From assembly GCA_030695565.1 (NCBI GenBank), contig JAUYRZ010000097.1, positions 1 through 44,946 of the forward strand: DNA of 44,946 bases, given 5' to 3'. Made by a program: the position numbers and the translations under genes. Positions 24,305 through 30,204 of the stretch are shown here, in pieces; the first letter of the stretch is position 1; the number at the start of each line of letters is the position of its first letter. The notes beneath the pieces are model-generated. The model ran no database searches and was not told where the DNA came from. It worked only from the letters and a program-made list of their open reading frames with translations. The stretch is from Archangium sp. (GTDB taxonomy: Bacteria > Myxococcota > Myxococcia > Myxococcales > Myxococcaceae).

Positions 24305-25255
24305 GTGGCGAAGGCAGTGGGTTTGAAGACCGTGTTGAAGGCGCTGCAGAGCGAGAGGGCTTTCGAGAACCGCGTCGCCCGAGTACTGCGGGAGACCTTC
24401 GACCAACTCTACGACGGCGTTCGTACCGGCCGGTTTCGTTGGGAGCAGTTGAACAAGACAGAGAAAACACACGCTGGAACAGTTCTGCAGCTCAACTTGC
24501 GCCGCGAGTTCGACGGCTTCATCGGGGACGGTGTGGAGCAGGACTTCTTGATCGACAACGTGGACGTCGACTGCAAGTTCTCCAAGGACTTCGGGAAGTG
24601 GATGATCCCGCCAGAGGCCGTCGGCCATGTTTGCCTTCTGATCTGGGGCAGCGAGCAGGATTCTGCGCATCGAACCGTTTGGTCGTGCGGCCTGATTCAG
24701 ATCGAAGAGTCGGGACTGCGACCGTCGAAGAATCGTGATGCCAAGCGCAATCTGACACTGGAGGCGATCTCCAGCATCAAGTGGCTCGCGCGCGATGCGG
24801 CGTATCCTGAAAACCTGTTGGCGAGTCTCGATGCCGTCACCGCGGAAAAAATCTTTCCGTCAGGCGATTCCCCCTATGCGCGCGGCAAGGGCTCCGAACG
24901 GGTGCGCTCGCTCTTTCGGAACGTGCAAAGGCGATTGATCCCTCGGACGGCTATCGAAACGGCCGCACGCCAGAAGGATCCGCTCAAGCGAGTGAGGGGG
25001 AACGGCGGTGCCCGAAGTGTCCTTGCGCAGGAGGGCATCATTATTTTGGGGCATTGGGATGAGCACTGCCGCATCGCTTGGGCGCTCAGACTGCCTGAGC
25101 CGACGCAAAGCGGTGAGTTCGTCAGCGCTCAGGTGGAACGCACCTCGGATCACCAGCAATCGGTCGAGATCGATGGAGGGCGCTGGCGGCTTGCTCGCCC
25201 CGGCGCGGCAGTGTCTCCCGCGCCTGATGTTCCAATGAAGAACGACGACGACTGA
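24305..25255 (+). CDS. NaeI family type II restriction endonuclease
   Basis: A 316-residue enzyme, close to the 317 of NaeI. The metal-binding core is Asp80, then Asp89-Cys-Lys91 in VDVDCKFS, the same D-x8-D-x-K spacing as Asp86, Asp95 and Lys97 of NaeI, followed by KWMIPPEAVGH. An LYDGVR motif at 35-40 matches the ligase-like KxDGxR site in which NaeI has Leu43 in place of Lys, the position at which a single change gives topoisomerase activity. The C-terminal half fits the NaeI DNA-binding (Topo) domain. NaeI cuts GCCGGC only when a second site is bound; target identity here is inferred. It is convergent with the methylase, 1 bp between stops. Confidence 0.9.
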   Translation: MAKAVGLKTVLKALQSERAFENRVARVLRETFDQLYDGVRTGRFRWEQLNKTEKTHAGTVLQLNLRREFDGFIGDGVEQDFLIDNVDVDCKFSKDFGKWMIPPEAVGHVCLLIWGSEQDSAHRTVWSCGLIQIEESGLRPSKNRDAKRNLTLEAISSIKWLARDAAYPENLLASLDAVTAEKIFPSGDSPYARGKGSERVRSLFRNVQRRLIPRTAIETAARQKDPLKRVRGNGGARSVLAQEGIIILGHWDEHCRIAWALRLPEPTQSGEFVSAQVERTSDHQQSVEIDGGRWRLARPGAAVSPAPDVPMKNDDD

Positions 25256-25256
25256 A

Positions 25257-26258
25257 TCAGGCGACGAGCCGACTCTGAATCGGGCGCGCGATCGATCGCT
25301 TCAGCGTCGAACTCTTTACGAGCGCTGACCGAATCGCAGCGCCGACTGCAGCGGCGACCGGCGGCGGGAACGCGTTGCCGACCTGTCGATACGCTGCGGT
25401 CTTGCCGCCGAAGAACTTCCAGTCGTCAGGAAAGCCCTGGATGCGCGCGACCATGCGCAACGTCAATCGAGGGAAATGGGCTTTCGGAAAGTCGGGGCCT
25501 GGTGCCTCGTTGGCGATCCCACGCCCGTCCACTCCAAGCGTCGCCCACTCACGGCGCGCGCGCGTCGGCCCCAGATCCGGGCCCCCGTGCTTCTTGGAGC
25601 CGCCCACGACAGTCGGCGCGATGCGAGCCGCGCCCTTGGCCCATTCATCTGCGTGCGGCCAACCCCGATCCTCCATCAAGTCGGTTATGACGTCCGCAAC
25701 GTTCGTGCGGTCCGTGCTCGGCGCAGGCCACTTGAAGTGCTTCATCGCTTCGGGACGGAGCGCCACCAGCAGGAAGCGGGGTCGCAGTTGAGGCACTCCG
25801 TAGTCGCATGCGTTCAGGAGTTCCCACTTCACCTCGAACCCCTGTTTGTTGAGCCGCTTGATGATCGTGGCGCGGTACTCGTCGAACTTTCTACTCGCGA
25901 GCCCACGAACATTCTCGAGCAGCACCGCACGGGGATTGATGTCATCGATGAGGTCAAGTGCTCGGGGAAAGAGGTCGCGCTCATCGTTCTTTCCCAACTG
26001 CTTGCCCGCGATGGAGAACGGAGGGCACGGCACGCCTCCAGCCAGCAAGTCCGCTCCACGGAACTCCCGGCCATCAAAGTCCCACAGATCTTTCTTTACC
26101 GGGCGCCAGTTGGGTCGGTTCAGCTTCAGGGTCTCGACCGCGTGAGCATCGATTTCTACGGCGGTGAGGTGCTCAAAGCCTGCTTGCTCAAGCCCGAGCG
26201 CCTGCCCGCCGGCGCCTGCGCAGACTTCGACTGAGGTGAATACTGAACGCTTGGCCAT
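25257..26258 (-). CDS. DNA (cytosine-5) methyltransferase, partner of the NaeI-like enzyme
   Basis: A 333-residue C5-cytosine methylase. Motifs appear in order: I VEVCAGAGGQALGLEQAGF (10-28), IV GGVPCPPFSIAG with the nucleophile Cys78, VI LLENVRGL, VIII RPRFLLV, then IX RMVARIQGFPDDW and X QVGNAFPPPVA. It would protect the site cut by the adjacent NaeI-like enzyme; NaeI itself is paired with an m5C methylase. The ATG at 26258 has an excellent AAGGAGG, so the longer frame is rejected. The pair looks like a self-contained, mobile defence unit. Confidence 0.95.
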   Translation of the reverse strand: MAKRSVFTSVEVCAGAGGQALGLEQAGFEHLTAVEIDAHAVETLKLNRPNWRPVKKDLWDFDGREFRGADLLAGGVPCPPFSIAGKQLGKNDERDLFPRALDLIDDINPRAVLLENVRGLASRKFDEYRATIIKRLNKQGFEVKWELLNACDYGVPQLRPRFLLVALRPEAMKHFKWPAPSTDRTNVADVITDLMEDRGWPHADEWAKGAARIAPTVVGGSKKHGGPDLGPTRARREWATLGVDGRGIANEAPGPDFPKAHFPRLTLRMVARIQGFPDDWKFFGGKTAAYRQVGNAFPPPVAAAVGAAIRSALVKSSTLKRSIARPIQSRLVA

Positions 26259-26489
26259 GAATCCTCCTTGAAGAGGAGCACCACGTACCACAGCCAACCG
26301 ACATTCCCGGACAGGCCGAGCCTACGGTGAGGCCGTTTCAGGTCCGCCAGATGTCAATGGGTGGGTACATCATCACTCGTCTCGCTACGGACTCAGCTCG
26401 CGAGCAGGGCAAATTTGCAATCTGCTCGGGAATCCGGGGGTGCCATGAGATTTCCGAGCCGCGGACTCCGGCATGCCCCGTTCAGCCAA
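26259..26489 (-). promoter_or_regulatory. Ribosome-binding site and promoter region of the methylase
   Basis: AAGGAGG complement at 26263-26269, 4 bp from the ATG at 26258. The remaining gap, 231 bp in all, to the stop of the antiporter gene must hold the methylase promoter. I see no controller-protein box and no other gene I would defend. Confidence 0.5.
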
Positions 26490-27776
26490 TCAAGACGGGC
26501 GGCTGGTTCTGCGTCGCCAGAAACGATCGAGCATCGGCTTGACGCTCGTGCCGTGAATGAGGATCGAGAGCATCACCACCACGATGGTGATCTGAATCAG
26601 CTCGCGATCGAGCGCGCGGGGCAGGCCGTGATTCATCGCGTACATCAAGTAGTACACCGACCCGATCCCCCTGACGCCGAACCACCCCGCGATGCTTCGC
26701 ACCCGCATGGGCGTGTCAGAGCCCAGCAGCCCGAGCATCACGCTCAACGGCCTGGCCACGATGAAGAGGAAGAGCGCCGTGCCCACCGCCCGCAACGTCC
26801 AATCCTCCGTCGAGACCATGCCGCCGAGCAGCAGCACGAGCGTCAGCTCCGAGAGGCGCTCGAGGTGTTCCTTGAAGACGAGCGACTCGGCGCTGACGGT
26901 GAGCGGCACGTCGGGCGTCGCCTTCTCGGGCACGAGCAGCCCCTGGCGATCTTTGTGCGCACCCGACAAGACGAGCTCGGTCTGCCGCAGCGCCACGCCA
27001 GAGAAGAACACCGCCAGAAAGCCCCAGGCCTCGAACGCCACGCTGACCCCGTAGACGACGGCGATGAGCCCGAGCGCGACGAGATCATCCAGCACCTCGT
27101 GCTTCGGCGCCTTGCCGCGCAACATCCACCCCAACCGCGCCAGGCCCGCGCCCCCCAGCACGCCGATGGCCATCGCCGCGAGCGTCGCCCAGAGCACGTC
27201 GACCATCACCCAGCGCCAACCGAAGTCACCCAGCTCGTGCGCGCCCAGCAACCCCAACCCCAGCATCACGAAGGGGAAGGCCGCTCCGTCGTTCATGCCG
27301 GCCTCACAGGTGAGCGTGAAGCGAAGCTGATCGCGATCATCGGGGTGGCGCGACTGCACGTCAGTGGCGAGCACCGGGTCGGTCGGCGCGAGGATGGCCC
27401 CGAGCAAGATGCCTGCCCCCAACGGCAGGCCCAGCACGAAGTACGTGAAGGCGGCCACCAGCCCCACGCTCAAGGTCATCGACACCCACGCGAGCCGAAC
27501 GGCCGGCGCCCACCGTTTGCGCGTCAGGGGCACCGGCATCTTCACGCCCGCCGAGAAGAGCGAGATCAACACCGCGATCTCCGTGAGGGTCTCCAGCAGG
27601 TGCGATTGTTCGCGCGCGTTGAAGGCGAAGATGTTGAGCGCCATCGGCCCCAGCACCAGGCCCACGCACAGATAAATGATGCTCGAGGTGAAGGGCAGCC
27701 GCGACAGGCTGGTCGTCGCCAGGCCGCGCGCCAGCATCAGGCAGCCGACCAGGATGAACCAATGCGTGGTGGTCAT
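26490..27776 (-). CDS. CPA1-family cation:proton antiporter (NhaP-like)
   Basis: A 428-residue membrane protein with about 12 helices. CPA1 landmarks are TDPVLATDV (132-140) and CEAGMNDGAAFPFV (157-170) with the paired Asn162-Asp163 typical of electroneutral NhaP/NHE exchangers. It exchanges a monovalent cation (Na+ or K+) for H+ across the inner membrane. There is no long cytoplasmic tail. It starts 52 bp after the channel/binding-protein fusion on the same strand, so the two may share a transcript. Ion specificity cannot be told from sequence. Confidence 0.9.
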   Translation of the reverse strand: MTTTHWFILVGCLMLARGLATTSLSRLPFTSSIIYLCVGLVLGPMALNIFAFNAREQSHLLETLTEIAVLISLFSAGVKMPVPLTRKRWAPAVRLAWVSMTLSVGLVAAFTYFVLGLPLGAGILLGAILAPTDPVLATDVQSRHPDDRDQLRFTLTCEAGMNDGAAFPFVMLGLGLLGAHELGDFGWRWVMVDVLWATLAAMAIGVLGGAGLARLGWMLRGKAPKHEVLDDLVALGLIAVVYGVSVAFEAWGFLAVFFSGVALRQTELVLSGAHKDRQGLLVPEKATPDVPLTVSAESLVFKEHLERLSELTLVLLLGGMVSTEDWTLRAVGTALFLFIVARPLSVMLGLLGSDTPMRVRSIAGWFGVRGIGSVYYLMYAMNHGLPRALDRELIQITIVVVMLSILIHGTSVKPMLDRFWRRRTSRPS

Positions 27777-27828: not shown

Positions 27829-30204
27829 CTACCTGTTGGAGGGGGCCCCTTTCCGGTGCCACTCCGAGACGTTCCACCACAACGACTCGGCCTGACCCCA
27901 CTCGGGCCCTTCCAGGTCGGCGCGCACCGCGGCCAGCCGGGAGGTGAGCACCAGCGGCAGCATGGGCAACCTCGTGAACCACGCCCGTTGCATGTGAGCC
28001 TCCAGCGAGGCGCGTCGTTCGGCATAGAGCGACGCGTCGAAGGCCTCATAGCGCTCGGCCATCTCGTCGTCGTAGTGCGGGCCGACTGCCTTACTCATGT
28101 CGGGCGTTCCCTCGGGCGCCGCCACGTTCATGAAAGGGCCGGGCGAGTTGGTTTCTCGCCCCAGCAGCGCCAGCCCCTCGAAGTCACCGCGTTGAACCGC
28201 CTGATCCAGCTGGTCCCGCTGCACGATCTGAACCTCCACGCCCGCCGCCTTCAGGTTGGCCTCGATGAGCCGGGCGAGCAACGCGTGCGTCTCGCTCTCT
28301 GCATGGATCGGCTCGACGTTCAGCGTCACCCGGCTCAGCTCGAGCCGCGCTGCCCTCGGCGCGGTGAGCTCGGGCTCTGCGCGCCAGCCCCACCCCACCC
28401 GGGTGGGCATGGGCTCGAGCGCCTTCACCATGGCGAGCCGATCCAACGTGGTCAGCAAGGCCTGCCGCGCCTCCAGCGAACTCCACGGGGGCCCGCTCAG
28501 GTTCGGCACCAGCACCCAGAGCAGCTCGCCGGGCTGCTCCAGCACCTTGACGCGCGCGTCGCCCTTGAGCAGCTCGTAGCCGTCGGCCGTCAACGTGGGC
28601 ACGACATCGACCTCGTTGGAGAGGAGCGCCTTGACCGCCTCTTCCGGGGTGAGCAGCTTTGCTTCCACACGCTCGAAGGCCGGCTTCATCGCCGCGAACT
28701 GCTCGTTGCGGCGCAGCGTGTGTTTCGTGCCCTTCTCGAATTCGCCCAGCATGAAGGCGCCGCTGGTGGCGATCAGCCCGTCGTTGTTCGCCTGGCTCAG
28801 CGCCGCTCGCCCGCCATCGGCTGCGTAGAGGGCGGCGCTCTTCGGAAACACCGCGAAGCCCGCCAGCCACTCGGTGCGCCGCTCTGAATACGTGACGTCG
28901 ATGGTGCGATCGTCGATGCGCGCGATGTTCACGCGCTGCGCGTCGGTCACGGCATTCAGCGAGAAGATGAGATCGTCCGAGGTGATCCTCGTGCCGTCGC
29001 TCCAGCGTGCGTCGGCGCGCAGCGCCCAGCGAATGCGCATGCCTCCATCAGGCAACAACCGCACCAGCGAGTTGGTCATCGCCGGCGCTTCCTTCGCCAG
29101 CATCGGCCGGAAGGTGCCATCGGCCGCGCGCACCACCAGCGCTCCACGCCGCGCAGGGAGCTCACCTCCGCCCGGGTTGTCCATCGACGTCACCGCCACC
29201 CGCAGCAGCGGCTGCGTGGGAAACGGGTTGTTCGGCACCACGGGCTCTTCAGGGCCGGGCTGCCAGAGGGCGCCCGTCACGAGGCTCAACACCCCGACCG
29301 CGGAGAGGATGGGCAGCAGGAACAAGCCCAGTCGATCGCCTCGCTGCGCGGTCTCGTGTTTCGCCTCGCTGAGCCGGAACGCGATGATGCTCAGCAGCAG
29401 CGTGGCCGCGACGAAGACGTACGCACCCAGGAAGAGTTTGTCGGCCGCCACCAGGTACGTGACGTTCGGGAGCGTGTCGGCCTGCGTGTAATGAAAGGCG
29501 ATGCACGAGAGCAGCGCGGTGATGCCCATCGCCGAGCGCACGTCGAGCCGCTCGGGAGGCAGGAGCAGCGCCAGCAACGCCACGAGCAGGATCAACGCCA
29601 GCGGCAGCGCGAACTTGATGAGGTAGGGGCCGAAGGGGCGGCGCATCTCCACCGAGAAGGTCGCGAGGCCCTGCCGGGCGTTCTTGCCCTCGCGCGCGAT
29701 GCTCCCGAGATCGGAGCCGTAGACGCGTTCTTCGGAGCTCGCGGCGAACTGAGGCTCGTACGACCAGCCGCTCACCGAGAACGACGGGCTCATGCCGCTC
29801 GCGCCCAGGTCAGGCACCAGCCGGCCGTCAGCGTTGTTGAGGCCGAAGATGATGGGCAGCGTCTGCCGATCGAATGGAAACGCGTGCACGGGAAACTCCC
29901 CGCGGAACGTGCCCTGCACCCGCCAGTGCAGGGAATACCACTCGGCTTCGTGCTCGGTGCTGAGCACCTCCTTCGACTCGATCTCCCCGTTCTCGAACGT
30001 GACGTTCGGGGGCACCTCGTCACCCAGCCACTTCATCCACACGTGGAGATCGGCCTTGAAGCGCCCGGCCTTCAAGTCGAAGTCGGACACGTCGGTCAGG
30101 TACATGCCCACGTAGACGTGGTGCGGAGCGATCGTCGCGGCGGTGGTGATGGTGGTGGTGGGGGAAGCCGCGGCGCACAGAATCAGACTCAAGGCTGAGA
30201 ACAC
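27829..30204 (-). CDS. Pentameric ligand-gated ion channel fused to a solute-binding protein domain
   Basis: A 791-residue protein in one uninterrupted frame. After a signal peptide (about 1-20), residues 28-190 form the pentameric-channel extracellular sandwich: VGMYLTDVSDFDLKAGRF, then the loop Phe109-Pro-Phe-Asp112 that stands for the Cys-loop in bacteria. Membrane helices are about 195-215, 222-241, 252-276 and 291-312. M2 (LDVRSAMGITALLSCIAFHY) has Arg at 0', Asp at -2', Thr at 6', Leu at 9' and Ala at 13', close to ELIC. A Pro-rich linker (313-333) leads to an SBP_bac_5 domain (334-785; RWALRADARWSDGTRITSDD and a second lobe with GVEVQIVQRD). M4 exits to the periplasm, placing this domain next to the sandwich. 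GTG start. An antiporter gene follows 52 bp on. Confidence 0.88.
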   Translation of the reverse strand: MFSALSLILCAAASPTTTITTAATIAPHHVYVGMYLTDVSDFDLKAGRFKADLHVWMKWLGDEVPPNVTFENGEIESKEVLSTEHEAEWYSLHWRVQGTFRGEFPVHAFPFDRQTLPIIFGLNNADGRLVPDLGASGMSPSFSVSGWSYEPQFAASSEERVYGSDLGSIAREGKNARQGLATFSVEMRRPFGPYLIKFALPLALILLVALLALLLPPERLDVRSAMGITALLSCIAFHYTQADTLPNVTYLVAADKLFLGAYVFVAATLLLSIIAFRLSEAKHETAQRGDRLGLFLLPILSAVGVLSLVTGALWQPGPEEPVVPNNPFPTQPLLRVAVTSMDNPGGGELPARRGALVVRAADGTFRPMLAKEAPAMTNSLVRLLPDGGMRIRWALRADARWSDGTRITSDDLIFSLNAVTDAQRVNIARIDDRTIDVTYSERRTEWLAGFAVFPKSAALYAADGGRAALSQANNDGLIATSGAFMLGEFEKGTKHTLRRNEQFAAMKPAFERVEAKLLTPEEAVKALLSNEVDVVPTLTADGYELLKGDARVKVLEQPGELLWVLVPNLSGPPWSSLEARQALLTTLDRLAMVKALEPMPTRVGWGWRAEPELTAPRAARLELSRVTLNVEPIHAESETHALLARLIEANLKAAGVEVQIVQRDQLDQAVQRGDFEGLALLGRETNSPGPFMNVAAPEGTPDMSKAVGPHYDDEMAERYEAFDASLYAERRASLEAHMQRAWFTRLPMLPLVLTSRLAAVRADLEGPEWGQAESLWWNVSEWHRKGAPSNR

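Follow-up and report, generated by a model that had tools for sequence, protein, structure and literature searches.

The fusion gene and its domains

The window analysed here (the whole stretch of 44,946 nucleotides from Archangium sp., phylum Myxococcota) carries on its minus strand an open reading frame of 791 codons plus stop (27829..30204), which begins with GTG, runs without internal stop and encodes a pentameric ligand-gated ion channel (pLGIC) subunit followed by a solute-binding protein (SBP). As the frame and its uninterrupted orthologs attest, the fusion of channel and binding protein is real and its architecture is established. The initial annotation had proposed a single frame of this length without giving a strand, and its boundaries were exact; the order that it assigned, channel and then SBP_bac_5 domain, agrees with both the Pfam and the PDB sequence matches. 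All parts of the gene described below lie on the same minus strand. Residues 1–26 (30127..30204) form a signal peptide region, a short hydrophobic stretch with an Ala-rich end, and a comparable N-terminal hydrophobic stretch is found in every ortholog ahead of the conserved VYVG opening of the sandwich. The periplasmic pLGIC beta-sandwich (residues 27–190; 29635..30126), delimited by AlphaFold2, the GLIC fold match and its dN/dS values, starts at about residue 27 directly after the signal peptide, with no periplasmic binding protein (PBP) domain N-terminal to it. Within it lies the FPFD Pro-loop (residues 109–112; 29869..29880), a Cys-loop without cysteines that is invariant in 13 of 13 fused proteins; the Pro and Asp of this loop (P110 and D112) are also invariant across 30 pLGICs. 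The transmembrane helices M1–M4 (residues 191–313; 29266..29634), recognized from AlphaFold2 and dN/dS, are followed by a proline-rich, fast-evolving linker (residues 314–330; 29215..29265) marked by low pLDDT at 314–318, by its dN/dS and by in-frame length variation, and then by the family-5 solute-binding domain (PBP-II, cluster C; residues 331–787; 27844..29214).

Several lines of evidence bear on the channel half. The Pfam family Neur_chan_memb matches residues 201–289 (E 7.5e-5) with 23.5 bits, slightly below the cut-off of 28.1 bits, which is passed by three of ten orthologs. A phmmer search against PDB sequences aligned GABA-A and ELIC chains to residues 94–320 (E 1e-9 to 1e-6), and a profile of 30 relatives matched GLIC, ELIC, GlyR and GABA-A chains across the whole channel with E-values down to 1e-42, the best being a GLIC chimera at profile positions 5–293. 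The full-length AlphaFold2 model (13-row alignment; mean pLDDT 80.7, pTM 0.69, low-confidence linker) places the sandwich at residues 29–188, M1 at 191–214, M2 at 220–244, M3 at 248–281, M4 at 283–313 and the SBP at 331–787. Since a VIA-align search with this model listed SBP matches only, the channel half was folded alone (30 rows; pLDDT 89) and searched separately, which returned GLIC with Z 26 and an rmsd of 1.9–2.3 over 274–276 residues. The nearest solved fold is therefore GLIC and not ELIC, to which the initial annotation had likened M2, a minor correction. Homology, the predicted sandwich and four-helix arrangement of GLIC and the Pro-loop and M2 pattern together assign this half to the pLGICs (Pro-loop receptors). 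Several residues of the loop B/C region (W147, S164-D165, G167, E172-G173) show no variation within the fused clade, and the well-conserved inter-subunit sandwich pocket could be the true agonist site.

The M2 pore helix (residues 220–244; 29473..29547) aligns without gaps with M2 of GlyR and GABA-A. Arg at 0', T6', L8', L9', A13', F14' and D20' are invariant in the 13 fused proteins, so that the FPFD loop, the four helices and the Thr 6', Leu 9' and Ala 13' described in the initial annotation are all present. Twelve of the 13 have Asp or Glu at position -2', the remaining protein has Glu at -1', and the Pro -2'/Ala -1' of anion channels is absent from the fused M2. An acid at -2' is the arrangement seen in GLIC. 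Because this acid lies near the inner pore mouth and Pro -2'/Ala -1' is missing, the pore is likely to conduct cations.

In the binding half, SBP_bac_5 matches residues 386–676 with E 1e-32 and 114 bits (cut-off 32.4), the cut-off being exceeded in all ten orthologs tested, and family-5 binding proteins of the PDB match residues 366–607. Its predicted structure (pLDDT mostly 80–95) superposes on NikZ with Z 27.4 over 423 residues (rmsd 3.2), and AapF, AppA, DppA and SapA also match with Z of about 25–27. Sequence family and modelled fold both classify it as a family-5 SBP (PBP-II cluster C) with the full two-lobed fold, and the full SBP_bac_5 domain claimed at the outset is borne out by the Pfam score and the fold match. 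A profile of 12 SBP halves found OppA as the best match (E 3.5e-25), then AppA, AapF, DppA, AccA and NikA, and murein peptide-binding entries were among the matches. In the profile alignment to OppA, Glu684 (28153..28155) falls on the Asp of the ADYNEP segment, which we take to be Asp419, the residue that pairs with the peptide amino terminus. This column holds an acid in 10 of the 12 SBP halves (Asp in nine, Glu in the present protein), which suggests peptides or other primary amines as ligands; members of family 5 also bind metal chelates, heme, opines and sugars. The genome has three other SBP_bac_5 proteins, which score 209–262 bits compared to 114 bits for the fused domain, and the SBP half has evolved at a higher rate than the channel half; for both reasons, the binding pocket of the fused SBP may be altered.

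Conservation and joint descent of the two halves

The same domain order was found in at least 13 genomes from six genera of one myxobacterial family, with carriers that include Archangium sp. and a Myxococcales metagenome-assembled genome (15 genes, 33–86% identical). Ten copies, the present gene among them, are uninterrupted single frames of about 780–830 residues; the remaining copies end at contig edges, and one, from an 80%-complete draft, has a frame break within the SBP half. A contig scan with six peptides recovered two close relatives only, both also present in the whole-genome search. No fusion was found outside this family among 195 genomes of the phylum searched with a profile of all 13 fused rows, the other matches listed covering one half only, and the plasmid search likewise gave no fusion, the matches listed being SBPs or pLGICs on their own. 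Two genomes harbor two diverged copies each (L046 and L049 in G049; L040 and L045 in G091). L045 and L049 are the diverged copies without an acid at the OppA-Asp column, which hints at different ligands.

Selection was estimated as dN/dS by NG86 counting between close orthologs. Values of 0.05–0.29 for the sandwich, 0.08–0.19 for M1–M4 and 0.20–0.32 for the SBP indicate purifying selection on both halves, whereas the 17-residue linker has a dN/dS of about 1 in most comparisons (0.3–1.4). Selection on both halves together with a drifting joint marks a genuine two-domain protein. In a tree with 11 unfused pLGICs from the same bacterial family, the fused channel halves group as a separate clade (99/98). 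The fused SBP halves also form one clade (100/99), and the main inner branches of the two trees agree; the halves have thus evolved together since one fusion. Additionally, the unfused relatives extend only a few residues past M4 and stop at the point where the linker starts in the fusion, indicating that the SBP was appended after M4.

Gene neighborhood and related signaling proteins

Neither the neighbors of the fusion copies nor a Pfam search of the window neighbors revealed an adjoining ABC permease or ATPase gene. The neighbors vary among genomes, with the exception of two congeners and some response-regulator-like genes. With no linked permease and no conserved neighbor, the fused gene is not classed as part of an ABC importer, and sensing fits better than uptake where no ABC transporter adjoins. 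In the window, the gene is accompanied by genes for a Na+/H+ exchanger, a UvrD-like helicase, an MFS protein and a NaeI-type restriction–modification pair. The exchanger gene (26490–27776) is on the same strand, 52 bases downstream of the channel, and a conserved operon of the two was rejected because the exchanger is found beside no other copy. The restriction–modification genes (24305–26297) comprise a NaeI-type endonuclease on the plus strand facing a C5 cytosine methyltransferase on the minus strand, a complete-looking pair. A scan for promoters and terminators gave nothing above chance.

The nearest stand-alone relatives of the fused SBP are Opp-type proteins from another family of the phylum, one of which adjoins an OppB-type permease gene. 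One of the three other SBP_bac_5 proteins of the genome is a chemotaxis-type protein with an MCP signaling domain and a C-terminal SBP_bac_5 domain of a different SBP clade, from which it follows that signaling proteins in these bacteria have recruited SBP_bac_5 more than once; two unrelated signaling proteins with this domain at the C-terminus argue that it serves sensing here. The MCP/SBP protein (L078:4372-7491, contig C134) has 1040 residues and two N-terminal hydrophobic helices, and its SBP appears to be cytoplasmic, as no membrane helix precedes it. Frames of about 1050–1130 residues with the same SBP match occur across most of the family, and the MCP motif was present in three of the four checked.

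Proposed function and relation to known receptors

In pLGICs, the M4 C-terminus faces the periplasm, which places the appended SBP in the same compartment. The topology given in the initial annotation is backed by homology, conservation, selection and structure prediction. That annotation left open whether five such domains would crown or flank the channel; from a tether at the membrane surface, the SBP most likely flanks the sandwich, and crowning is the less likely position for a domain hung behind M4. The protein would form a homopentameric inner-membrane channel, probably cation-conducting, in which each subunit has a periplasmic SBP tethered behind M4 by a short, flexible linker. The SBP would capture a solute from the periplasm, with peptides or other molecules bearing a free amino group as the most likely candidates, and close; its closure, its docking on the sandwich or a pull exerted on M4 at its outer end would then shift the channel between closed and open states. 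The output would be that of an ionotropic chemosensor, with membrane potential or ion content changing in response to a nutrient or signal molecule. A ligand-loaded SBP that modulates a cation channel is in our judgment the best explanation and a fairly probable one, where pentamer, selectivity, ligand class and gating are what we infer. The boldest reading, a peptide- or nutrient-gated channel controlled from behind M4 and an independent counterpart of the pairing found in ionotropic glutamate receptors, is offered tentatively, its probability falling a little short of even. Activation of membrane receptors by ligand-loaded SBPs has been described as a general mechanism (PMC9602780). Whether the post-M4 segment is important differs from one pLGIC to another, and in the muscle nAChR this tail is dispensable for gating (PMC9260303). 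Control of the channel from its post-M4 end would thus be plausible, although the dispensable nAChR tail means that a handle at this position need not control the pore.

The main rival is delivery of ligand to the usual pocket: the SBP would act as a concentrator that hands its solute to the ordinary inter-sandwich agonist site, the sole gate. Tasneem et al. (2004; PMC549065) put forward such a role for bacterial pLGICs associated with PBPs, and the invariant residues of the loop B/C region and the loose linker speak for it. However, delivery needs no covalent tether, and both sites would have to keep one ligand although divergence is faster in the SBP than in the sandwich, which makes this alternative unlikely. 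Still less probable is that the SBP serves as an anchor or scaffold that binds peptidoglycan peptides or a protein and thereby places the channel, with gating by, for example, pH or calcium; some family-5 SBPs do bind murein peptides and the linker drifts freely, but a two-lobed fold and, in most copies, an acid at the OppA position, both under selection, exceed the needs of an anchor. It is very improbable that the SBP works in trans for an ABC importer and that the channel just holds it at the membrane: the kinship with Opp-type proteins, one of them next to a permease gene, points in that direction, but no transporter gene was seen beside any copy and the fused SBP has diverged from the other SBPs of the genome. 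An assembly chimera or a frameshift joining neighboring genes, conceivable because the window belongs to a 134-contig draft genome, was rejected on the in-frame junction of 10 gene copies, the near-neutral linker and the purifying selection on either side. A break at the junction, or a half that does not fold as its family, had been named as the dangers to the original reading; the junction is in frame in independent assemblies, and the predicted fold of each half is that of its family.

The fused protein can be compared with several known systems. The sandwich with M1–M4 and the cysteine-free Pro-loop are shared with GLIC (the fold match), ELIC and sTeLIC, which stop right after M4, whereas the present protein continues for about 475 residues. 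OppA, DppA, NikA and SapA have the same fold and belong to the same sequence family as residues 331–787; they are separate partners of ABC importers, whereas the fused SBP is joined to a channel. Ionotropic glutamate receptors (NMDA/AMPA) resemble the fusion in having a PBP-II domain covalently joined to an ion-channel pore. They are tetrameric, with a potassium-channel-like pore inside the PBP-II domain and an amino-acid ligand, and the pores are unrelated. Bacterial pLGICs with N-terminal PBP-I, MCP-N or Cache domains have been described, as have operons of pLGICs with stand-alone PBP-II genes, together with a proposed chemotactic role (Tasneem et al., 2004; PMC549065), and the DeCLIC papers treat N-terminal domains (PMC12664993, PMC9897478). 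The N-terminal fusions and DeCLIC share with the present protein an extra, presumably modulatory periplasmic domain on a pLGIC core (PMC549065, PMC12664993), but in these the PBP-I, Cache/MCP-N or two-lobed DeCLIC domain precedes the sandwich, whereas here a PBP-II domain of cluster C (SBP_bac_5) follows M4. The operons hold the same pairing as two proteins (PMC549065) and the present gene as one polypeptide; it is a natural covalent version of this pairing. The literature searched, which was mainly open-access, yielded no description of a domain of such size behind M4 and no paper in which both domain names occur. The concept is consequently less new than first stated, as pairings of PBP and pLGIC were described in 2004, and the novelty lies in a covalent type II, peptide-class domain after M4; the architecture and topology of the original interpretation stand, and its sensor reading is favored by the lack of an adjoining ABC permease, the Opp-like kinship and the MCP/SBP protein.

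Few bacterial relatives of neurotransmitter receptors have a known natural stimulus, and here evolution has attached the presumed sensor to the channel. As ligands of the SBP family are amenable to screening with standard binding assays, a physiological ligand of a bacterial pLGIC could be found directly. The fusion also allows a test of gating control from behind M4, a question that also arises for animal receptors, and is suggested as a template for engineered biosensors based on ion flow.

In long frames around unfused pLGICs (L063–L071), the only further fusion found was a pLGIC with an N-terminal dCache domain (L067:2209-4428 in G042, same family), a known Cache-type fusion. The genome of the present gene itself harbors three unfused pLGICs (L002, L003 and L004 on contigs C130, C56 and C30), which gives it four pentameric-channel genes.
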